Assembly: GCA_029258725.1 (NCBI GenBank)
Contig: JAPDKE010000013.1
Coordinates: 1 to 64,000 of the forward strand
Length of the DNA stretch: 64,000 nt
From: a bacterium
Lineage (GTDB): Bacteria > Hydrothermota > UBA3072 > JAPDKE01
Direction: 5' to 3'
This document shows positions 6,186 through 28,449 of this stretch, piece by piece (positions within the stretch are counted from its first letter, which is position 1; each line of letters begins with the position of its first letter). The notes under the pieces were generated by a model. The model made no database searches, was not told the origin of the DNA, and was given only the letters and a program-made list of their open reading frames with translations. Position numbers and translations under genes: made by a program.

Positions 6186-6536
6186 TTACCTCGTTATCCA
6201 TCTGTAATAAATCCCGCTTCCCAGCAGGGCAAGCAAACCCGCAAGGAATATGGCACCCGCTTCATAGGTGCTGTGCTGGAGCATGCCGACAATAAGGGGG
6301 AAGAGGTCAGCAGGGTCCGCATGAGAAAGTGCATCTGAGTAGAAGAGAATCCTGTAGAAGTGGATTCCTGCACCAAAGAGAAGCAGGATACCTCCTATAA
6401 CCGGGAATATCCATATTCCCTTTCTGCCAACAAGCCCGAGAAGCCTTTTGAGTATTGCCCCATAGATGAGGATGGAGAGCGTGAAGAGTATTATTCCCAC
6501 AGCAAAGATTATCTCCATCTGTATGTTTATCTTCAT
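6186..6536 (-). CDS. Small three-helix membrane protein (116 aa), unknown function
   Basis: Not recognised. Three hydrophobic segments at ~8-30 (IIFAVGIILFTLSILIYGAIL), ~40-62 and ~88-110 are separated by a basic loop (KRLLGLVGRK) and a longer loop with an acidic patch (SDALSHADPADLF). The basic loop after the first helix suggests a cytoplasmic position, with the N-terminus outside. Its length and helix pattern match the gene just upstream, so the two look like divergent paralogues. Three bases separate it from each neighbour. Confidence 0.6.
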   Translation of the reverse strand: MKINIQMEIIFAVGIILFTLSILIYGAILKRLLGLVGRKGIWIFPVIGGILLLFGAGIHFYRILFYSDALSHADPADLFPLIVGMLQHSTYEAGAIFLAGLLALLGSGIYYRWITR

Positions 6537-6539
6537 CCC

Positions 6540-6890
6540 TTACCTCCTTTTCGGTGAGACAACAGCCCTGAATCTTAAAGCCCCTATGAGTGAGAGAATT
6601 CCGGAGAGGAAGAAGAGTCCATATGCAATCATTTCCTCCATGGGCTTCATTTTTAAATACCCCCTCACTATGCTTGAGTAGAGCATGATAATCGCATAGA
6701 TAAGGATTCCGGATGGCGCCATCATTATGTACTGCCACTGCGTCTTCTTCCTGAGGACCATCTCATATCTTTTGGCAACTATCCCGAAGAATATGAGTGA
6801 AACCCACAGAATAATTGCACCTCCAACAACAAGATAACTTGATACAACCTTCCACTGTATTACCTCAGGTGGCCAGGCTGCTGCTCCCAT
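6540..6890 (-). CDS. Small three-helix membrane protein (116 aa), paralogue of its neighbour, unknown function
   Basis: The start is the ATG at 6890, six bases after AAGGAGGAAGGT; a longer frame to 6944 would run through the promoter and is rejected. Hydrophobic segments lie at ~17-39, ~52-72 and ~85-105, with a strongly basic loop (AKRYEMVLRKKTQWQY) after the first. The first 65 residues align by eye with those of the downstream gene (GGAIILWVSLIFFGIVAKR against VGIILFTLSILIYGAILKR). It is first in an operon ending in an HTH protein. No enzymatic motif is visible. The pair could form a heteromeric membrane sensor or anchor (inference). Confidence 0.6.
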   Translation of the reverse strand: MGAAAWPPEVIQWKVVSSYLVVGGAIILWVSLIFFGIVAKRYEMVLRKKTQWQYIMMAPSGILIYAIIMLYSSIVRGYLKMKPMEEMIAYGLFFLSGILSLIGALRFRAVVSPKRR

Positions 6891-6910
6891 ACCTTCCTCC
6901 TTTTTTCCTG

Positions 6911-6938
6911 ATAATACACCCCTTCCAGAAAAAGTCAA
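6911..6938 (-). promoter_or_regulatory. Sigma70-type promoter of the small membrane protein/HTH operon
   Basis: On the minus strand, TTGACT (6938-6933), 16-base spacer, TATTAT (6916-6911). This leaves a leader of about 15 bases carrying AAGGAGGAAGG before the ATG at 6890. Confidence 0.6.
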
Positions 6939-6954
6939 CCCCAATTTGTGCTGT

Positions 6955-19560: not shown

Positions 19561-20201
19561 TTGAGGAAAGGGTTAAAAAACTTTTAAAAGAGATACCTCC
19601 ACATGTTACCGTGGTTGCAGCAGCAAAGACAAGAACTGCTGAGGAGATAGAGGAGGCTATAAGGGGAGGGATAAGGATAATAGGGGAGAACTATGTTCAG
19701 GAGACGAGAAAGGTAAAGGAAAAGGTCTCGCTCCCCTGTGAATGGCATATGATAGGGCATCTCCAGACAAACAAGGTAAAACACGCCCTTAAACTCTTTT
19801 CCATGATCCAGACCCTTGATTCACTGAAACTTGCGGAGGCACTGGAGAAAAGGTGCAGGAAGGAGGGGAAAGAGATAAGAGTTCTTGTTGAGGTTAACAT
19901 TGCGCATGAACCCCAGAAGTTCGGGATACCACCTGAGGATGTGTTTGATTTTCTTGAGAAACTCAGGGAATTTCACCACATAAGGGTATGCGGTCTTATG
20001 ACCATGGGTCCACCTGTCCCTGACCCTGAGGAGATAAGACCCCTTTTCAGGCGCATGAGGGAACTCTTTGAGCGTGCAAGGGAAAGGTTTTCCGGGATTG
20101 AGATACTCTCAATGGGCATGAGTGATACCTATAAAATTGCAATAGAGGAAGGTTCAAACATGGTAAGGATAGGGACTGCAATATTCGGGAGGAGAAGATG
20201 A
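19551..20201 (+). CDS. yggS: YggS/PROSC-family PLP homeostasis protein
   Basis: Single-domain fold-type III PLP-binding barrel, with no known enzymatic reaction, that buffers free pyridoxal phosphate. The PLP lysine is in VTVVAAAKTRTAEEIEEAI; also typical are GENYVQE, WHMIGHLQTNKVKHAL, VLVEVNIAHEPQKFGI, GLMTMGP and LSMGMSDTYKIAIEEGSNMVRIGTA (quoted in part). 216 residues, family-typical. It overlaps the FAD oxidase by 10 bases and rseC by 4. Confidence 0.93.
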   Translation: MGLIEERVKKLLKEIPPHVTVVAAAKTRTAEEIEEAIRGGIRIIGENYVQETRKVKEKVSLPCEWHMIGHLQTNKVKHALKLFSMIQTLDSLKLAEALEKRCRKEGKEIRVLVEVNIAHEPQKFGIPPEDVFDFLEKLREFHHIRVCGLMTMGPPVPDPEEIRPLFRRMRELFERARERFSGIEILSMGMSDTYKIAIEEGSNMVRIGTAIFGRRR

Positions 20202-20626
20202 AGGAGCCGGGAAGGGTTCTTGAGGTGGATGGGGACAGAGTGAAGGTGAAACTTTTCCCATCCTATGAATGTAAAAAGTGTCCTGCAAGGAAACTCTGCC
20301 ATCCGGATGGGGGGGAGATAATTATTGAGGCAAGGAGTAAGATACCGGTGTCTCCCGGGGATGAGGTGTGGGTGGAGATAAAAGAAAGAGAGGTTCTTTC
20401 TGTTTCTTTTCTGGTTTTTGGAGTTTTACTCATTGCACTGCTTCTGGGATTTTTTGCTGTTTATGCCATCACCCGCAATCCTCTCATCTCCTGCCTTGCA
20501 GCCTTGGGCTTTGCAGCAATTTACATCCTTATCCTCCGCAAAATCCAGGAACGATGGAAGGAGAAGGTGTTTTTTGAGGTGGGGGAGAGGAGGATACCTT
20601 ACACCCGTGAAACCTTGACAAGTTGA
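20198..20626 (+). CDS. rseC: RseC/MucC-family membrane protein
   Basis: 142 residues. The N-terminal ~70 form a small beta domain with the family cysteines (YECKKCPARKLCHP, CxxC-x5-C) and PGDEVWVEIKEREVL. Two transmembrane helices follow (~72-94 and ~97-117), then a short basic tail. RseC-type proteins take part in SoxR reduction and often accompany Rnf or sigma-E genes; neither is here, so the exact role is open. It is the last gene of the 7119 operon; the promoter of the next operon overlaps its 3' end. Confidence 0.85.
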   Translation: MKEPGRVLEVDGDRVKVKLFPSYECKKCPARKLCHPDGGEIIIEARSKIPVSPGDEVWVEIKEREVLSVSFLVFGVLLIALLLGFFAVYAITRNPLISCLAALGFAAIYILILRKIQERWKEKVFFEVGERRIPYTRETLTS

Positions 20627-20647: not shown

Positions 20648-21736
20648 ATGATGCTTCTCTATCTTCTTTTTGTATCTCCACCTGTTAATGTTCATGCCTA
20701 CGACACTCCTGATGATGCAGGAGGGAGTATAACTGTTGAGTGGTCCCCACCACCTGGAGTGGAGGTAAAGTTTTATGAAGTTTACCGTTCATGTGAGGGG
20801 GGACCTTATGAATTTATTGGAAAGTTCATAGGGAGTCTTCATTCCTATGTTGATAAGGGGCTTGAGGATGGAAAGAAATACACCTACAGGATAAGGCTCA
20901 TTGATGTGAATGGAGATACATCCGAGTTTTCCATGCCCTCATCTCCTGCTGTTCCATCTCCCCAGTGGTTCAAAAAGGGGAAGCTAAATCTTTTCATAGC
21001 CGTTGTCCTTTACTTTGGATTTCTCATATTCTTTGTCCAGTCCGCAAAGACAGGAAAGAGATTATTTATAAGAAGAATAGCAGGGCTTGATGCCCTTGAT
21101 GAGGCAGTTGGAAGGGCAACCGAGATGGGAAGACCAATACTTTATGTCCCGGGACTTGGAACCATGGGTGATGTTGCAACCATAGCATCCGTGAATATAT
21201 TGAAACCCGTTGCAAAGAAGGCTGCGGAATATGAAACGCCGATAATTGTTCCAAATCGTGACCCGATTGTTATGACAGTTGCACAGCAGGTTGTGAAGGA
21301 GGCATATCTTGAGGCAGGCAGACCCGATGCATACCGGGAAGACAACGTGTTCTATCTCACCGATTCCCAGTTTGCCTATGCTGCTGGTGTTGATGGAATA
21401 ATGATGAGGGAGAGGCCTGCAACGAATCTCTTTATGGGTATGTTCTATGCTGAGTCTTTGATTCTTGCTGAGACCGGTAATATGACAGGGGCAATACAGA
21501 TTGCCGGGACTGATGCTGTTGCCCAGTTGCCTTTCTTTATAGCCGCATGTGATTATACGATAATTGGTGAGGAGCTTTATGCTGCGAGTGCATATCTTTC
21601 ACAGGACCCGAAACTCGTTGGCTCACTCAAGGCACAGGATCTCGGAAAGGCAATTCTCATGTTCCTTCTCCTGCTTGGAAGCATCCTTTCTCTGTGCAAC
21701 ATACCCCTTATCCTGAACTTCTTCAGAACCCTTTAA
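20648..21736 (+). CDS. Cassette protein A1: fibronectin-III plus membrane-anchored DUF6754-like domain
   Basis: 361-362 residues. A short signal peptide is followed by one fibronectin type III domain (~20-105: SITVEWSPPPGVEVKFYEVY, LEDGKKYTYRIRLID). A transmembrane helix at ~115-137 precedes basic residues (KTGKRLFIRR), so the following ~190-residue alpha/beta domain should be cytoplasmic: LDALDEAVGRATEMGRPILY, AAGVDGIMMRERP, AESLILAETG, FFIAACDYTIIGEELYAASA. A second helix closes the protein. I recall this domain as DUF6754 (from memory; needs a profile search). First of a four-gene set repeated immediately downstream; A2 (23825) is its paralogue. Function unknown. Confidence 0.75.
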   Translation: MMLLYLLFVSPPVNVHAYDTPDDAGGSITVEWSPPPGVEVKFYEVYRSCEGGPYEFIGKFIGSLHSYVDKGLEDGKKYTYRIRLIDVNGDTSEFSMPSSPAVPSPQWFKKGKLNLFIAVVLYFGFLIFFVQSAKTGKRLFIRRIAGLDALDEAVGRATEMGRPILYVPGLGTMGDVATIASVNILKPVAKKAAEYETPIIVPNRDPIVMTVAQQVVKEAYLEAGRPDAYREDNVFYLTDSQFAYAAGVDGIMMRERPATNLFMGMFYAESLILAETGNMTGAIQIAGTDAVAQLPFFIAACDYTIIGEELYAASAYLSQDPKLVGSLKAQDLGKAILMFLLLLGSILSLCNIPLILNFFRTL

Positions 21737-21745
21737 GGAGGTGGG

Positions 21746-22363
21746 ATGAGAAGGACAGGACCTCTTGTGGTTGCGTTTATAATGGGATTTGCAATGATAT
21801 TCCAGTACTTCATCCCCCATCCTCTTTCCCAAAAGTTCTACGAAATAATGGTCCAGCAGTGGCTTATAATCATAAGTATATTCCTCTACCTCTTTGGTTT
21901 GAGGAGTTTTACCCTTTATCACTATCACAAGGTAAGAAGGAAAAAGGAAGGATGGTATTTTTCCCTGATAGCGCTCCTTGCTGCGCTCATCACGGTTATC
22001 ATTGGCTTTGGAACCCGAAGAGGACCTCTTTTTGATAAAATATACGACTACATCCTTGCACCCCTTCAGGCAACGATGTTCTCCCTGCTTGCCTTCTTCA
22101 TTGCTTCTGCGGCATACCGGGCATTCAGGGCAAGGAACCTCGAGGCAACGCTTTTGCTGGTTACTGCAACCATTGTTATGCTTGGAAGGGTTCCCTTTGG
22201 TGCATTCATGTGGCACAAACTCCCTGATGTTGTTGAATGGATTCTCAAGTATCCAAACATGGCAGCCCAGAGGGGAATCCTCATAGGGGTTGGACTTGGA
22301 ATGATAGCAACATCCATGAAGATAATCCTTGGAATTGAGAGAAGTTACCTTGGAGGTGAATAG
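21746..22363 (+). CDS. Cassette protein B1: multi-spanning membrane protein, unknown function
   Basis: 205 residues with about six hydrophobic segments. The start is the ATG after AAGGAGGTGGG. The most conserved part against its paralogue B2 (24880) is LLAFFIASAAYRAFRARNLE with TLLL, VMLGRVP, then QRGILIGVGLG and IILGIERSYL; a basic motif YRAFRARN lies between helices. It is not a known transporter family by eye. Encoded between A1 and C1, it probably forms the membrane core of a complex with them (inference). A 90-base stretch at 22061-22150 is almost identical to B2 at the DNA level. Confidence 0.7.
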   Translation: MRRTGPLVVAFIMGFAMIFQYFIPHPLSQKFYEIMVQQWLIIISIFLYLFGLRSFTLYHYHKVRRKKEGWYFSLIALLAALITVIIGFGTRRGPLFDKIYDYILAPLQATMFSLLAFFIASAAYRAFRARNLEATLLLVTATIVMLGRVPFGAFMWHKLPDVVEWILKYPNMAAQRGILIGVGLGMIATSMKIILGIERSYLGGE

Positions 22364-23202
22364 TGTGGGAAAAATTGCTGAGACTGGATAGAAGGTGGAT
22401 TTTTGTGCTTGTTGCCCTTTCGGTTCTCATTCCTCTTTTAAGGCCTCTGGGATTGCCTATGAGGACTACAGAACCCGTTCTCAATCTCTACACCTACATA
22501 GATACCCTGAAGCCCCACGATAAGGCTGTTATTCTTGTTACGGACTTTGACCCCTCCACCATGCCGGAACTTTTGCCCATGGCAGAGGCGATAATGAGGC
22601 ACTGTTTTGCGAGAAAGATACCCCTTATCCTCTATGGTGGAATGTATCCGACATTTGTTGGAATGGCAAAGATGGCTCTTTCCAGGGTTTTACCTGATTT
22701 TCCTGATGTAAAATACGGTGAGGATTATGTTTTCCTGGGATACATACCCGGAACATCCCTTATAATTCTCTCGATGGGAGAGTCCATATCAAAAACGTTT
22801 GGAAATGACTACTATGGAAATAAACTTGACTCCCTCCCCTTAATGCAGCGTGTCAAGAACTACGACCAGGTTGCACTGGTTATAGACCTTTCAGGTTCCG
22901 GAACACCCGTCTGGTGGATAATATACGGATACCAGAGGTATGGGGTGAGGGTTGGATGTGGAACGACCGCGGTTTCTGCAGCACAGTACTATCCCTATCT
23001 CCAGACAGGGCAGTTTGTGGGAATGCTTGGAGGACTGAAGGGAGCGGCTGAGTATGAGACCCTGATAGAGCGTGCTGGCATACCTCCCGGGAGAAAGACA
23101 GCATCCATAGGAATGGATGCACAGTCCATAGTCCATCTCATGCTCATATTCCTCATAATCCTTGGTAATATAGGATACTTCATCGTAAGGAGGAAAAGAT
23201 GA
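22363..23202 (+). CDS. Cassette protein C1: bitopic protein with a central alpha/beta domain, unknown function
   Basis: 279 residues. GTG start sharing its G with the TAG of B1. One helix at ~14-30 (WIFVLVALSVLIPLL) after a basic N-terminus, and one at ~252-272 before RRKR; the positive-inside rule puts both ends in the cytoplasm and the ~215-residue middle outside. That middle (HDKAVILVTDFDPSTMPELL, IMRHCFARKIPLILYGG, YGEDYVFLGYIPGTSLIILS, NYDQVALVIDLSGSGTPVWW, GMLGGLKGAAEYE) has a Rossmann-like alternation of strands and helices with no catalytic signature I know. Paralogue C2 at 25521 keeps the STMPEL..RAI..HC, DSLP..R..NY and GGLKGAAEYE positions. Confidence 0.7.
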   Translation: MWEKLLRLDRRWIFVLVALSVLIPLLRPLGLPMRTTEPVLNLYTYIDTLKPHDKAVILVTDFDPSTMPELLPMAEAIMRHCFARKIPLILYGGMYPTFVGMAKMALSRVLPDFPDVKYGEDYVFLGYIPGTSLIILSMGESISKTFGNDYYGNKLDSLPLMQRVKNYDQVALVIDLSGSGTPVWWIIYGYQRYGVRVGCGTTAVSAAQYYPYLQTGQFVGMLGGLKGAAEYETLIERAGIPPGRKTASIGMDAQSIVHLMLIFLIILGNIGYFIVRRKR

Positions 23203-23828
23203 GCACAAATCCATGGGTATGGGTAGCGGCATTTCTGACACTCGCAATATATTCCTTTCTCTATAAAGACAATCCTGTTTACAGGTTTGCAGAACATATA
23301 TTCATGGGAGTTTCTGTTGGATATGGGCTTGTTCTCTTCTGGTATAACTCGGTTATTCCCAGGCTCTGGGAACCGCTTGTGAAGGGGACAGAGCCAACGA
23401 GATTCTTCCTTCTCATCCCCATCCTCATAGGTGCCCTGACCTTCTCTCTTTTTGTTCCCAGGTATTCCTGGCTTGTGAAATATACGCTTGCATTTGTTGT
23501 TGGAGCAAGCGCAGGACTTTCAATTCCCCTGAGCTTTGAGACAAACATATTTGAACAGGTTCGCTCCACCATACTTACAAGACAGATGCTCTCAGGATGG
23601 GGGATGGTGAGCAATCTTATAATGTTTATCGGTGTCATAGTAACACTTGCCTACTTCTACTTTTCCATGGAGCATAAGGGCGTTATAGGAAAGACTGCAA
23701 GGATAGGAAGAATATACATAATGATAGCATTCGGGGCATCCTTCGGATACACGGTTATGGCACGTGTATCCCTTCTTATAGGAAGGATGCAGTTTTTGCT
23801 CCATGACTGGCTTGGAATAATAAAATGA
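23199..23828 (+). CDS. Cassette protein D1: multi-spanning membrane protein, unknown function
   Basis: 209 residues, about six transmembrane segments. The N-terminus WVWVAAFLTLAIYSFLYKDN is followed by the conserved PVYRFAEHIFMGVSVGYGLV, with an amphipathic AEH motif between helices. The C-terminal RIGRIYIMIAFGASFGYTVM, then ARVSLLIGRMQFLLHDWL, is the best conserved part against D2. ATGA overlaps on both sides couple it to C1 and A2. The family is not recognised. Confidence 0.7.
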   Translation: MSTNPWVWVAAFLTLAIYSFLYKDNPVYRFAEHIFMGVSVGYGLVLFWYNSVIPRLWEPLVKGTEPTRFFLLIPILIGALTFSLFVPRYSWLVKYTLAFVVGASAGLSIPLSFETNIFEQVRSTILTRQMLSGWGMVSNLIMFIGVIVTLAYFYFSMEHKGVIGKTARIGRIYIMIAFGASFGYTVMARVSLLIGRMQFLLHDWLGIIK

Positions 23829-24883
23829 TATTGCTTTTTTCCTTGATTATAACGGATACCCCGGACGATGGAGGGGGGAGCATCACGATAAAGATTGAAC
23901 CCCTGCCTCCTGGCGTTCAGGAGGTGAGGATTTACAGGGAGGGGGAGTTTGTGCACTCTCTTGTTCCTCCTTCATGTGAATATCAGGACCAGGGGCTTGA
24001 GAATGGGAAAGAGTATCACTATCGGGTTGAGTATGTTTTTGAGGATACGGTTGTGGTTGAGGAGGGGAGTGCGGTTCCTGTTGCGCAGTGGTTCAATAAA
24101 AAAAGGGTAAATGTTCTCATCCTCATGCTCATTTTCTCCGCATTCATCCTCACCATGATAAGGCTTGCAAGGACCCAGGAACTCTTTATAAGAAAAATAC
24201 CTGCACTTGATGCAATAGATGAGGCGGTTGGAAGGGCAACGGAGATGGGGAAGCCCATCCTTTACGTCCCCGGAATAGGTGACATAACCATGCCTGAAAC
24301 CCTTGCTTCTCTTGCAATTCTGGGGAGGGTTGCAAAGAAGACGGCAGAATACGGGGCTGATATACTTGTTCCAAACTGGGATGCGGTTGTGATGACTGCT
24401 GCGCAGGAGGTTGTCAAGCAGTCATATACCGAGGCAGGAAGGCCTGACCTTTACAAGGAAAGAAACATAATGTACCTCACATCCGAGCAGTTTGGATTTG
24501 CTGCTGGTGTTGATGGAATAATGATGAGGGAGAAACCTGGTGCCATATTCCTTCAGGGAACATTCTTTGCAGAGTCCCTCATCCTTGCGGAGACGGGCTT
24601 CTCCATCGGGGCAATACAGATTGCAGGAACCGTCCAGACTGCACAGTTGCCTTTCTTTGTTGCAGCATGCGATTATACACTCATTGGTGAGGAATTGTAT
24701 GCAGCATCAAGTTACATAACCAGGGACCCTGTCATGCTTGGAACGATAAAGGGTTCGGACTGGAGCAAGGTCCTTATAATGTCCATAATAGGAATATGCG
24801 CAATCCTTGGAACGCTTGCGCACTTTATGCCCGGGCTTGAAGGTGTGTATCAGAACCTTATAAACTGGTTCTCACCAAAATGA
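23825..24883 (+). CDS. Cassette protein A2: fibronectin-III-like plus DUF6754-like domain, paralogue of A1
   Basis: 352 residues with the same layout as A1: a very short signal (MILLFSLIIT), an Ig/Fn3-like domain (~10-85, SITIKIEPLPPGVQEVRIYR), a helix at ~95-115, a cytoplasmic alpha/beta domain (LDAIDEAVGRATEMGKPILY, VPNWDAVVMTAAQEVVKQSY, AAGVDGIMMREKPG, ACDYTLIGEELYAASSYI) and a C-terminal helix. The alpha/beta domain is roughly 60% identical to A1 by eye, while the extracellular domain is much less alike. So the inside face is constrained and the outside face has diverged. ATGA overlaps on both sides. Confidence 0.75.
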   Translation: MILLFSLIITDTPDDGGGSITIKIEPLPPGVQEVRIYREGEFVHSLVPPSCEYQDQGLENGKEYHYRVEYVFEDTVVVEEGSAVPVAQWFNKKRVNVLILMLIFSAFILTMIRLARTQELFIRKIPALDAIDEAVGRATEMGKPILYVPGIGDITMPETLASLAILGRVAKKTAEYGADILVPNWDAVVMTAAQEVVKQSYTEAGRPDLYKERNIMYLTSEQFGFAAGVDGIMMREKPGAIFLQGTFFAESLILAETGFSIGAIQIAGTVQTAQLPFFVAACDYTLIGEELYAASSYITRDPVMLGTIKGSDWSKVLIMSIIGICAILGTLAHFMPGLEGVYQNLINWFSPK

Positions 24884-25512
24884 TGCAGCGCAAACTTCCT
24901 TTGCTCATAACCTTTGTTACCGGTGTTATAATGGTGGTTGCCTTCTTTGTCCCCCATCCACCTCTTGGTGGACTTGAGCAGGTATCCCTGAGGTGGTATT
25001 CAATCATTGCAGGATTCACCCTTCTTCTTGGTGCTGATTCCCTTATAAGGACACATATAAGGAAGATAAGGAGAAGGGAGAATGTGTTTTACTCAACGGT
25101 TCTTCTATGCGCACTCGGTCTTGCAATAGGTGCAGGGGCACATGCCTTTATAACCCGGGGAAGTGCATTTGAGTCCGGAACCTTCTTCATGTACCTCTAC
25201 GATAACCTCCTCATTCCCCTCCAGGCAACGATGTTCTCCCTGCTTGCCTTCTTCATTGCATCTGCTGCATACCGGGCATTCAGGGCAAGGAATCTTGAGG
25301 CGACTCTGCTGCTCATAGCGGCGGTTCTTGTCATGCTTGGAAGGGTTCCTCTTGGAGAGATGATGTGGAGTAAACTTCCGGTGATTGCCGAGTGGATATT
25401 CAACATTCCCCAGATGGCAGCAAAGAGAGGAATTCTCATTGGCTCTGCTCTTGGTGCGATTGCGATGTCTCTGAGAATAATCCTTGGAATAGAGAGAACC
25501 TATCTCTCATAG
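24880..25512 (+). CDS. Cassette protein B2: multi-spanning membrane protein, paralogue of B1
   Basis: 210 residues, same helix pattern as B1. The block LIPLQATMFSLLAFFIASAA, then YRAFRARNLEATLLL, VMLGRVPLGEMMWSKLPVIA and KRGILIGSALGAIAMSL is nearly unchanged, while the first 110 residues differ more. 25216-25305 is the DNA patch almost identical to B1. It starts at an ATG overlapping the A2 stop. Confidence 0.7.
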   Translation: MMQRKLPLLITFVTGVIMVVAFFVPHPPLGGLEQVSLRWYSIIAGFTLLLGADSLIRTHIRKIRRRENVFYSTVLLCALGLAIGAGAHAFITRGSAFESGTFFMYLYDNLLIPLQATMFSLLAFFIASAAYRAFRARNLEATLLLIAAVLVMLGRVPLGEMMWSKLPVIAEWIFNIPQMAAKRGILIGSALGAIAMSLRIILGIERTYLS

Positions 25513-25520
25513 GAGGAGCG

Positions 25521-26339
25521 ATGGGATTCTGGGAGAGAATGGCGAGGATTGACAGAAGGATAATCTATCTCTTCATCGCTGTTGTTGTCATTGTTCCCAT
25601 CCTCCTCCAGATCACACTGCCTGTAACCGTATCACCTCCCGTGAGGATGGCATATGAGACAATAGATGCACTTCCCGAAAGTTCCGTTGTTATGATTTCC
25701 ATAGACTACGATGCTGCCTCCATGCCAGAGTTGCAGCCCATGCTCAGGGCAATTTTGCATCACTGCTTTTCAAAGAATTTGAGGGTTCTCATGATTGCCC
25801 AGTGGGCGCTCGGTGTTCCCCTGGGTATAGAGGCTCTTGAATCGGTGGCAAAGGAGTACGGGAAAAAGTACGGGGTGGACTATGTCAATCTTGGATTCAG
25901 ACCGGGTGGTATGGCGCAGATGGTGGGTATGGGGAAAGAGATAAGGGACTACTTTTTAACGGACTACAGGGGAACACCCATAGACTCCCTTCCCATGATG
26001 AGACACATTCACAACTATCAGGACATAGCCTTGCTTGTCGGGCTTGAGGCTGGTGCAACGGGTGATATGTGGGTTATATATGTGGGTGGAAGATACAGGC
26101 AGGATATCATCCTTGGGGTTACTGCTGTTATTGCTCCTGATGCGTATCCCTATCTTCAGGCAGGGCAGATAAAGGGGCTTATAGGAGGACTGAAGGGTGC
26201 GAGTGAGTATGAGTATCTGGTTGGAAAGCCCGGGCTTGGAATGGCTGGAATGACTGCCCAGTCCTGTGCGCATATTCTCATAATCCTCTTCATAATCATA
26301 GGTAACATAGGATACTTCATGATGAGGAGGAGAAAGTGA
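25521..26339 (+). CDS. Cassette protein C2: bitopic protein with central alpha/beta domain, paralogue of C1
   Basis: The start is the ATG at 25521 behind AGGAGGAGCG; a frame extending to 25392 would overlap B2 by 120 bases and is rejected. 272 residues: N-terminal helix after FWERMARIDRRIIY, external domain (SSVVMISIDYDAASMPELQP, LRAILHHCFSKNLRVLMIA, YGVDYVNLGFRPGGMAQMVG, MMRHIHNYQDIALLVGLEAG, IGGLKGASEYEYLVG), C-terminal helix and RRRK tail. It is collinear with C1. The conserved DYD/DFD-x-STMPEL (here AASMPEL) segment and the paired histidine/cysteine in HHCF/RHCF are candidates for a functional site. Confidence 0.7.
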   Translation: MGFWERMARIDRRIIYLFIAVVVIVPILLQITLPVTVSPPVRMAYETIDALPESSVVMISIDYDAASMPELQPMLRAILHHCFSKNLRVLMIAQWALGVPLGIEALESVAKEYGKKYGVDYVNLGFRPGGMAQMVGMGKEIRDYFLTDYRGTPIDSLPMMRHIHNYQDIALLVGLEAGATGDMWVIYVGGRYRQDIILGVTAVIAPDAYPYLQAGQIKGLIGGLKGASEYEYLVGKPGLGMAGMTAQSCAHILIILFIIIGNIGYFMMRRRK

Positions 26340-26941
26340 TGGAGGTTCTTGGAGTATGGATAGCAGCGGGATTGACCCTGTGCATTTTCTCCTTCCTTTA
26401 CAGGGATAACCCATTCTATAAATTTGCGGAGCATCTCTATGTTGGATTTTCAGCAGGATACTGGCTTGTTTATACCTGGGAATACACAATAAAGGGAATG
26501 CTCATAGACCCTATAAGATTGCAGCATGCATATTCTGTTCTCATTCCTGGATTCTTTGGTGTTCTGATGCTTTCAAGATGGTTTCCCAGGATTGCATGGC
26601 TCAGCAGGATAAGTATATCATTTACGGTTGGAATAGGTGCTGGACTTGCATTAACAGGGCAGATTCATGGATTTATCCTTCCCCAGTTAAAGGCAACCCT
26701 TCTTCCACTCACATCCATAAATAACTTCCTTATAGTATTTGGTGTTATAACAACGCTCTTTTATTTCTTCTTCTCAAGGGAGAGGAAGGGTTTAACCCGT
26801 GTATTTGCAAGGATAGGGATTGTTTACATAATGGTTGCCTTTGGTGCGGCATTCGGATACACGGTCATGGCAAGAATTTCCCTGCTCATTGGAAGATTCC
26901 TCTTCCTCTTCAGGGACTGGCTGCATATAATAAAGGTATGA
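26336..26941 (+). CDS. Cassette protein D2: multi-spanning membrane protein, paralogue of D1
   Basis: 201 residues. GTG at 26336 overlapping the C2 stop, or the adjacent ATG at 26339, behind GGAGGAGAAA. It shares with D1 the ..IYSFLY/IFSFLYRDNPFYKFAEHLY segment and the C-terminal IVYIMVAFGAAFGYTVMARI, then SLLIGRFLFLFRDWLHIIK. It has about six helices. It ends the second cassette; the MNT gene starts within its stop codon. Confidence 0.7.
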   Translation: MMEVLGVWIAAGLTLCIFSFLYRDNPFYKFAEHLYVGFSAGYWLVYTWEYTIKGMLIDPIRLQHAYSVLIPGFFGVLMLSRWFPRIAWLSRISISFTVGIGAGLALTGQIHGFILPQLKATLLPLTSINNFLIVFGVITTLFYFFFSRERKGLTRVFARIGIVYIMVAFGAAFGYTVMARISLLIGRFLFLFRDWLHIIKV

Positions 26942-27279
26942 AGAACAGAACATCTTATCTTGATGAGATAATAAGAAAAAGAAAAGAAAGACTGGAAAAA
27001 GAGAGAAAAGAGATTCTTGAGAGGGTTAAAAATGCTCTTTTGAGGATAAGAGAGAAGTATGGGATAAAGGAGGCATACATCCTTGGTTCACTTGTAAGGA
27101 AAAATGCATGGGGGGAGAATTCCGATGTGGATGTTGCGGTGGGAGGCGCAAGCATGCACATTCTTTCCATAATGAAGGAGATAGAGGATGTCGTGAACAG
27201 GGAGGTGGATGTTGTGGACCTTGACGCTGTCCCTGTTCCTGATGGATTCAGAAGAAAGGGGTTGAGGGTATATGGATAA
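26938..27279 (+). CDS. mntA: MNT-type minimal nucleotidyltransferase (MntA-like antitoxin)
   Basis: 113 residues. A basic coiled-coil N-terminus (~10-35, IIRKRKERLEKERKEILERV) precedes a Pol-beta-type minimal nucleotidyltransferase: ILGSLVRKNAWGENSDVDVA supplies GS plus the two metal-binding Asp of DVD, and REVDVVDLD gives the third acidic residue. With the HEPN partner starting 8 bases before its stop, it forms the MNT/HEPN pair. In characterised pairs the MNT protein AMPylates the HEPN toxin's tyrosine and silences it. ATGA overlap with cassette gene D2 is unusual for a free-standing toxin-antitoxin locus. Confidence 0.8.
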   Translation: MKNRTSYLDEIIRKRKERLEKERKEILERVKNALLRIREKYGIKEAYILGSLVRKNAWGENSDVDVAVGGASMHILSIMKEIEDVVNREVDVVDLDAVPVPDGFRRKGLRVYG

Positions 27280-27718
27280 GAGAATTTTTGAGGCAGAGAT
27301 AAAGGACAGAATGGAGGTTGTGAAAAGGATTTATGAAAAGATAAAAAAGAGGAGGGAAAGTTTCAAGCACAGTGTTGAGGGAGTAGAGAGCATGGCACTT
27401 CAATTGCACAATCTTTATGGTGCCTATGAGGAGGTGATGAAACTTGTGGCAGAATATTTTGAGAATCAGATTGAACCTCCCATGTATCATAAAAATCTTC
27501 TGAGGAGGATGAAACTGGAGATAGAGGGAGTGAGACCTGCTTTGCTTTCTCAGGAGACCTTTTCCCTGCTTGATGAATTGAGAAGGTTCTACCACTTTCT
27601 CAGGCATGCCTACGGGGTGGAGTTACGTGCGGAGAAGGTTGAGGAGATGGTTGAGATAGCCATTAAGGTTGAGCCTTTGTTTTTAAAAGACCTGGAGCGT
27701 TTTATCTCCCTTCTATGA
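27272..27718 (+). CDS. hepT: HEPN-domain protein (HepT-like toxin)
   Basis: 148 residues, all helical. The HEPN signature R-x6-H-x-Y is present near residue 105 in RRFYHFLRHAYG, with Tyr in the position that MntA modifies in known systems and Arg/His forming the RNase site. Further helices: SVEGVESMALQLHNLYGAYE near the N-terminus and EVMKLVAEYFENQ. Together with the preceding MNT gene it makes a two-gene toxin-antitoxin-type module. The next gene (lipM-like) starts in its stop codon. Whether the RNase is active cannot be read from sequence. Confidence 0.8.
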   Translation: MDKRIFEAEIKDRMEVVKRIYEKIKKRRESFKHSVEGVESMALQLHNLYGAYEEVMKLVAEYFENQIEPPMYHKNLLRRMKLEIEGVRPALLSQETFSLLDELRRFYHFLRHAYGVELRAEKVEEMVEIAIKVEPLFLKDLERFISLL

Positions 27719-28449
27719 TTTACCTTTTAAAAACAGGTTTCAGGGACCCTTATGAAAACATGGCAATAGACGAGGCATTGATGGAGTTTGTGAAGAAAGA
27801 AGGAATACCTGTTTTGAGGTTTTTCAACTTCTCACCCCCCTCAACCACCATTGGATTTCACCAGCGAATAGAGGAATGGTTGCTTGAACTTGAAAAGAAG
27901 GGGGTTCCGTGGGTGAGGAGACCAACAGGCGGGAGGGCGGTATTCCATGATGGAGATTTAACCTATTCTCTCACGTTCCCTGAGGACCACGAAATCTTCG
28001 GGGGTTCTGTTCCCGTATCCTTTATGAAAATCTCCCAGGGATTTAAAAGAGGATTTGAACTTGCAGGAATAAGGGTTGAACTTGAAAGTAAAAAGGGAAT
28101 AAAGGGGACAGGATTCTGTTTCAGTGCAACATCCCTTTACGAGTTCACAATAAACGGAAAAAAAATCATGGGAAGTGCGCAGGTGAGGAGGGATGGGGTT
28201 GTTTTGCAGCAGGGAACGGTAGTTATCAGGTACCCTTCCCCTCCATTCCCCCATGTTCCGGGAATGGGAGCGATAGAGGACGTAAAAGAAATTTCCCTTG
28301 AGGAATTGCAGGATAAAATGGTTCAGGGATTTCAGGAAGTTTACGGGATTGAATTCAAACCCCTTTCTTTGTCTTCACTTCCCCCTGTTCCTGTTGAAAA
28401 GTATCGCTCAAGGGAGTGGAACTGGAAAGAATCACGGCCCCGGCAATGA
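27715..28449 (+). CDS. lipM: LipM-like octanoyl/lipoate transferase (BPL/LplA superfamily)
   Basis: Transfers octanoate or lipoate to lipoyl domains. Features: DPYENMAIDEALMEF at the N-terminus, PSTTIGFHQ, WVRRPTGGRAVFHDGDLTYS (the RRxxGGxAVxHD acyl-AMP/acyl site), then GFCFSATSLYEFTINGKKIM followed by GSAQVRRDG, where the cysteine sits as in LipM octanoyltransferases and the lysine as in the whole family. It ends in EKYRSREWN, typical of the family. Cysteine at this position favours LipM over LplA (inference). Its last 95 bases overlap the convergent mnmA. Confidence 0.82.
   Translation: MIYLLKTGFRDPYENMAIDEALMEFVKKEGIPVLRFFNFSPPSTTIGFHQRIEEWLLELEKKGVPWVRRPTGGRAVFHDGDLTYSLTFPEDHEIFGGSVPVSFMKISQGFKRGFELAGIRVELESKKGIKGTGFCFSATSLYEFTINGKKIMGSAQVRRDGVVLQQGTVVIRYPSPPFPHVPGMGAIEDVKEISLEELQDKMVQGFQEVYGIEFKPLSLSSLPPVPVEKYRSREWNWKESRPRQ

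Follow-up and report, generated by a model that had tools for sequence, protein, structure and literature searches.

A duplicated four-gene DUF6754 membrane cassette and a candidate ASKHA ATPase partner in Hydrothermota and other bacterial phyla

We focus here on a 64,000-nucleotide stretch of DNA (the window), positions 1 to 64,000 of contig JAPDKE010000013.1 in assembly GCA_029258725.1 of a Hydrothermota bacterium. Between 20648 and 26941, eight open reading frames lie on the plus strand in the order A-B-C-D-A-B-C-D: A1 (20648..21736), B1 (21746..22363), C1 (22363..23202) and D1 (23199..23828), then A2 (23825..24883), B2 (24880..25512), C2 (25521..26339) and D2 (26336..26941). An earlier sequence-only reading had described eight genes in one repeated order, and all frames, their strand and their order are borne out. 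It had also described nearly all junctions as 4-base overlaps, which is somewhat overstated: four of the seven internal junctions overlap by 4 bases and B1/C1 by 1 base, while A1/B1 and B2/C2 are gapped by 8–9 bases. The start of C2 is the ATG at 25521, with AGGAGG before it, and not that of the longer frame from 25392. Across their full length (global alignment), the two copies are 55% identical in A, 54% in B, 42% in C and 48% in D. This similarity is not due to chance, since like pairs score 850 (A), 495 (B), 551 (C) and 455 (D) and mismatched pairs only 6–29. Promoter and terminator scans gave no more than shuffle level, a phage, plasmid or defence origin found no match, and none of the PADLOC anti-phage defence models was matched by A–D or by the partners E and F described below. 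Directly 5′ of A1 lies a gene for an RseC/MucC-family membrane protein (20198-20626, plus strand; PF04246, E 4e-23), which does not recur at other loci. Past D2, a nucleotidyltransferase gene and a HepT-like gene (26938-27718, plus strand) form a probable MNT-HEPN toxin-antitoxin pair.

Membrane topology was derived from hydropathy and charge averaged over 131–165 homologues per family, and it agrees with what had been proposed for the window's proteins. In A, the fn3 part is predicted outside and the DUF6754 domain inside, with two helices; A1 reads as signal peptide, outside fn3 domain, transmembrane helix, inside DUF6754 alpha/beta domain and transmembrane helix, and A2 is similar but with a shorter outside domain. 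B would cross the membrane six times with both ends inside, and D six or seven times with its N-terminus outside, against about six passes proposed for each. C carries one helix at each end, N-in and C-in, around an alpha/beta domain predicted to lie outside. DUF6754 had been named as a possible identity for the inside domain of A, and on profile evidence A is certainly a member of that family (PF20539), with a match spanning the whole protein (A1 410.8 bits, E 2.3e-123; A2 378 bits, E 2.3e-113; Pfam gathering threshold 27 bits). The proposed Fn3-type domain passes the fn3 cut-off in A1 only (PF00041, 27.5 bits against 25, E 3.8e-6), where the model shows an all-beta fn3 fold, and A2 gives no hit. 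Between the two A copies, identity is 51% outside and 67% inside, so that the proposal of a conserved inside and a divergent outside holds in its direction, but the contrast is milder than was stated. For B, C and D, no Pfam or NCBIfam family scores above its cut-off. The annotation of B1 and D1 is based on family alignment and topology, that of C1 also on its model; B2 and D2 are assigned by alignment, gene tree and typing, C2 by alignment and typing, and A1 and A2 additionally by typing, with the tree and profiles used for A1.

The AlphaFold models of A (pLDDT 93) and C (pLDDT 96, for C1) are confident, and both contain a helix-(strand-helix)x6 domain between membrane helices. Profile comparison of the two soluble domains, with or without secondary structure, scored no better than a reversed control, and we regard this as a resemblance only; similar comparisons gave no support to B and D as inverted paralogues. 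Among the matches listed in a fold search with A, fn3 alone was found and none for the DUF6754 domain; a search with C gave no convincing match, only a weak Rossmann-like resemblance (query-normalised TM <0.4). Sequence searches of the PDB found no significant match for B, C, D, E or F. Isolated matches to Acyl_transf_3 (E 3e-4, lower than the cut-off) in 5 of 46 B members were judged to be chance. Profile searches also asked whether A–D might belong to unrelated known transporters; none of B, C and D hits a transporter family.

The relationship between the two copies was examined in a tree of 113 complete cassettes, a quick tree in which the deep branching is uncertain. Two large groups appear, each spanning several phyla, with the first window cassette in one (61 rows; type 1) and the second in the other (44 rows; type 2), and a few divergent cassettes from Poribacteria, L042 and L151 fall outside both. 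L042 (G015, contig C116) is a very divergent ABCD set, and its genome additionally encodes a type-2 cassette and lone A genes. When A, B, C and D are placed in trees of their own, each tree reproduces the same two-type split with a single change, which argues for one duplication of the whole cassette, with no later swaps of members between the types. The trees thus agree with the suggestion that the subunits were duplicated together, and they place a single whole-cassette duplication before the separation of the carrier phyla, making it far older than a local event.

Both types have also been kept. In 31 genomes of the window's phylum every detected C was typed. Both types occur in 30 of these, and exactly one type 2 in 29, the exceptions being G063, with two type-1 C genes and no type 2 found, and G086, with two type-2 genes. 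The two types are adjacent in many genomes and often far apart on the chromosome, so their co-retention is more than linkage. Additional type-1 cassettes are found where there are no additional type-2 ones. Genomes of the Methylomirabilota type hold only one cassette, whose genes differ in affinity (A1, B1 and C2-like, with D not clearly typed), and two types are therefore not obligatory everywhere.

The cassette is widespread. DUF6754 is present in 36 of 40 relatives, C in 97 of 100 genomes of the window's phylum, and A in 58 of 60 genomes from the phylum to which a Cloacimonadota genome belongs. When named genomes were scanned, at least 566 more loci came up; the 80 best of these come from Stahlbacteria/WOR-3, Zixibacteria, Latescibacterota, Edwardsbacteria, Fermentibacterota, Poribacteria, Coatesbacteria, Effluviviacota, TA06, Eisenbacteria, Cloacimonadota and Methylomirabilis-labelled genomes. 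In a survey of neighbourhoods, the ABCD order recurs in the window's phylum and about ten others and is kept in nearly all loci, apart from additional lone A genes, insertions and the ends of contigs; homologues are thus not scattered without each other, as they might have been for unconnected genes. Four genomes of the Cloacimonadota phylum (L256, L258, L260 and L262) have type-1 A proteins of about 950–1000 residues with a long outside region, two such enlarged A genes flanking one B1-C1-D1 set, with the type-2 cassette elsewhere. The window's genome itself has a third A gene (L035:8840-9895, contig C12), a lone type-1 gene without B–D, which is 73% identical to A1 (DNA 93% over 597 bases) and sits behind LemA-like and M48-protease-like genes, as read by eye. 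Two near-complete genomes of one genus in the window's class (G002 and G004) have no A or C and are natural null cases.

Clustering of neighbours brought out two soluble partners absent from the earlier reading: E, a 373-residue barrel-sandwich-like protein, and F, a 600-residue GlmL/MutL-type protein. E lies directly before A in 13 loci, with F before E. In the window's phylum E is present in 94 of 100 genomes and F in 55 of 60; the genomes lacking A and C (G002, G004) also lack both, and one genome (G014) has E and F with A and C not detected. E is also found in 20 of 22 named carriers from about ten phyla. In the phylum of a Methylomirabilis-labelled genome (G107), A occurs in 13 of 60 genomes, and E and full-length F occur in exactly those 13, three others showing weak partial matches to F only; the probability of a single coincidence of this kind is 2e-13, a number that is too small because it ignores relatedness. 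The gene order there is F-E-A-B-C-D, with c6 in front where found. Furthermore, paralogous F′-E′ fusions of about 950 residues occur in three genomes (L265:3760-6612, L266:3715-6558 and L269:4047-6953), which speaks for joint action of E and F; in L268, F′ and E′ form an unfused pair. Average conservation across phyla is 68% for E and 73% for F, with an identity of about 70% between phyla for the latter. The evidence for a link of E and F to ABCD is strong, and ABCD with E and F as one system is well supported.

The ASKHA superfamily is recognised by its phosphate 1, phosphate 2 and adenosine motifs. In the F alignment, read by eye, DCGSTTTK, D.GGATTD (DIGGATTD) and GSGG are invariant, and F matches Pfam MutL (PF13941) end to end; F is thus a predicted ASKHA superfamily ATPase. 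Its scores of 221.5 and 160.5 bits are below the NCBIfam GlmL equivalog and subfamily cut-offs (475 and 204 bits), and it also falls below the curated Or-4 cut-off. E reaches at best 21.4 bits in one member and 13.8 in another against the Biotin_lipoyl cut-off of 22.1 bits, lacks, by eye, an obvious lysine for biotin or lipoyl attachment and gives a weak RnfC_N hint.

These findings suggest an ATP-linked inner-membrane machine, likely built from both protomer types together with E and F and used for envelope transport or assembly, a reading that we consider evenly balanced between right and wrong. B and D would form the membrane core, A would cross the membrane with its DUF6754 domain inside and its fn3-type arm outside, and C would position a second alpha/beta domain outside. 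On the cytoplasmic side, the adaptor E and the ATPase F would form a module on the inside domain of A, and the ATP cycle of F probably drives or gates the complex through E and that domain, as co-occurrence, gene order and the fusions suggest. The two protomer types may alternate in one hetero-oligomer, which we infer with moderate confidence because it best explains their retention together and the split shared by the gene trees. The earlier reading had also proposed one membrane complex, perhaps now a hetero-oligomer, and the comparisons speak in favour of this proposal.

The types could, on the other hand, form two separate homomeric complexes that serve different clients and are both kept by the same genomes, the system being otherwise the same. 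This is possible, if doubtful: it would fit the frequent separation of the types on the chromosome, the extra type-1 cassettes, the outside domains as the most divergent parts, and the phylum in which one cassette suffices. However, the near-invariant co-retention, the single type 2 in 29 of 31 genomes and the frequent adjacency fit interdependence better. Against a hetero-oligomeric machine also speak the single mixed cassette of the Methylomirabilota type, G063 with no type 2, G014, where E and F are present but A and C were not detected, and the window's own genome, in which E and F are encoded away from the cassettes on contigs of their own (L237 and L267).

The neighbourhood of the cassettes points in part to metabolism. 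In the window, an LplA-type lipoate ligase gene (27715..28449, plus strand; PF21948, E 1.7e-26) follows the putative toxin-antitoxin pair, and in ten other loci the +1 gene following D is of the same family; the ligase is thus a recurrent neighbour of D, though a candidate member of the system only. GcvPB-c6-F-E is a recurrent block, of which the window's genome has GcvPB-c6-F, and at L054 a superoperon runs from GcvPB, c6, F and E through both cassettes and LplA on to ExbB. Such neighbours suggest a possible metabolic role, in which E and F, as a GlmL-like ATPase and a carrier-like protein, would serve metabolic maintenance, and ABCD would be a transporter or enzyme of a pathway linked to glycine and lipoate. 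The recurrence of the block and of LplA, together with the place of F in Pfam MutL, speak for this reading, which we nevertheless judge unlikely: F falls below the GlmL and Or-4 equivalog cut-offs, E lacks, by eye, a clear attachment lysine, and outside the window's phylum and some of its neighbours the flanks are unrelated (shikimate genes, MazG, transketolase) but E/F-ABCD persists.

A second set of neighbours belongs to the TonB system. In ten loci, type-2 D is followed, directly or past LplA, by all or part of DUF4388-c18-c17-c16-c15-ExbB-ExbD-ExbD-TonB. The window also holds, on its minus strand, genes for the small membrane protein c16 (6540..6944; tblastn 55% to c16 members, E 1e-25) and for its partner c15 (6186..6536; 48%, E 3e-23), which elsewhere belong to the DUF4388-c18-c17-c16-c15-ExbB-ExbD-TonB operon that follows type-2 D. 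As an accessory, ABCD might assist the TonB-ExbB-ExbD motor, drawing energy from the proton gradient and serving outer-membrane transport. We consider this improbable, as E and F are kept without adjacent TonB genes in the Methylomirabilota and Cloacimonadota types, and the ExbB clusters of the window's genome lie away from the cassettes. For the ATP-linked machine, the frequent presence of this operon behind the type-2 cassette, and an outside arm of A that varies most between lineages, hint weakly at transport or assembly across the envelope as its task. Lastly, a recent tandem duplication without further meaning, as the head-to-tail layout and short overlaps might suggest, is refuted by the trees and scarcely credible, the copies being only 42–55% identical and each resembling its own type from other phyla more closely than the copy beside it.

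It is also informative to compare the proposed machine with known systems. First of all, Pfam DUF6754, the domain carried by A, is itself a family without assigned function; the literature searched contained no mention of DUF6754 or PF20539, and the sources searched contain no record of B–F, its constant partners. Second, F shares its PF13941 match and ASKHA motifs with GlmL/MutL (PF13941, NF040745, TIGR01319), the accessory ATPase of B12 mutases. It differs in being longer, in scoring below the GlmL, Or-4 and GlmL-subfamily cut-offs and in its association with E and a membrane complex instead of a mutase, and no mutase gene was identified among the recurrent neighbours scanned. Third, PilM-PilN, GspL and FtsA resemble the system only in how they work, with a cytosolic ASKHA ATPase on a membrane assembly; no component hits a PilM, FtsA or T2SS family, and the membrane parts are unrelated. 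Rnf/Nqr, on the other hand, recalls it in having several small six-helix subunits in opposite orientation and a barrel-sandwich protein (here E), but no flavin or Fe-S subunit is present here, no homology was found between B and D, and Rnf-Nqr membrane subunit families are absent among the matches listed for 46 B and 45 D members. TonB-ExbB-ExbD adjoins type-2 cassettes, yet none of A–F matches its families. Finally, ABC_transp_aux (GldG-type) was found in none of 45 C members, with one isolated ABC2_membrane_2 match (E 0.004), and no ATP-binding cassette gene was identified among the recurrent neighbours scanned. F and the fn3 domain are, by profile, members or relatives of known families, and the system as a whole matches none of those tested. 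That no described system has this composition, as had been supposed, agrees with the searchable literature. A catalogue of unknown families from uncultivated taxa treats lineage-wide families in general (PMC10849945); its main text leaves WOR-3, Cloacimonadota and Zixibacteria unmentioned, and single families may be in its supplements.

The near-universal retention of the system in the window's phylum and in the Cloacimonadota type, combined with the conservation of F, points to core cell machinery. A bolder form of our proposal, possible but tentative, is that the system may represent a new category of trans-envelope machine that belongs to the core of several uncultured phyla. An actin-fold (ASKHA) ATPase would act here through an adaptor on a DUF6754 hetero-oligomer made of two ancient, paralogous protomer sets. 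B, C, D and E have no curated family, and the part list of A–D in two types with E and F would turn orphan proteins into a testable complex. It may also serve as a marker system for the envelope biology of candidate phyla.
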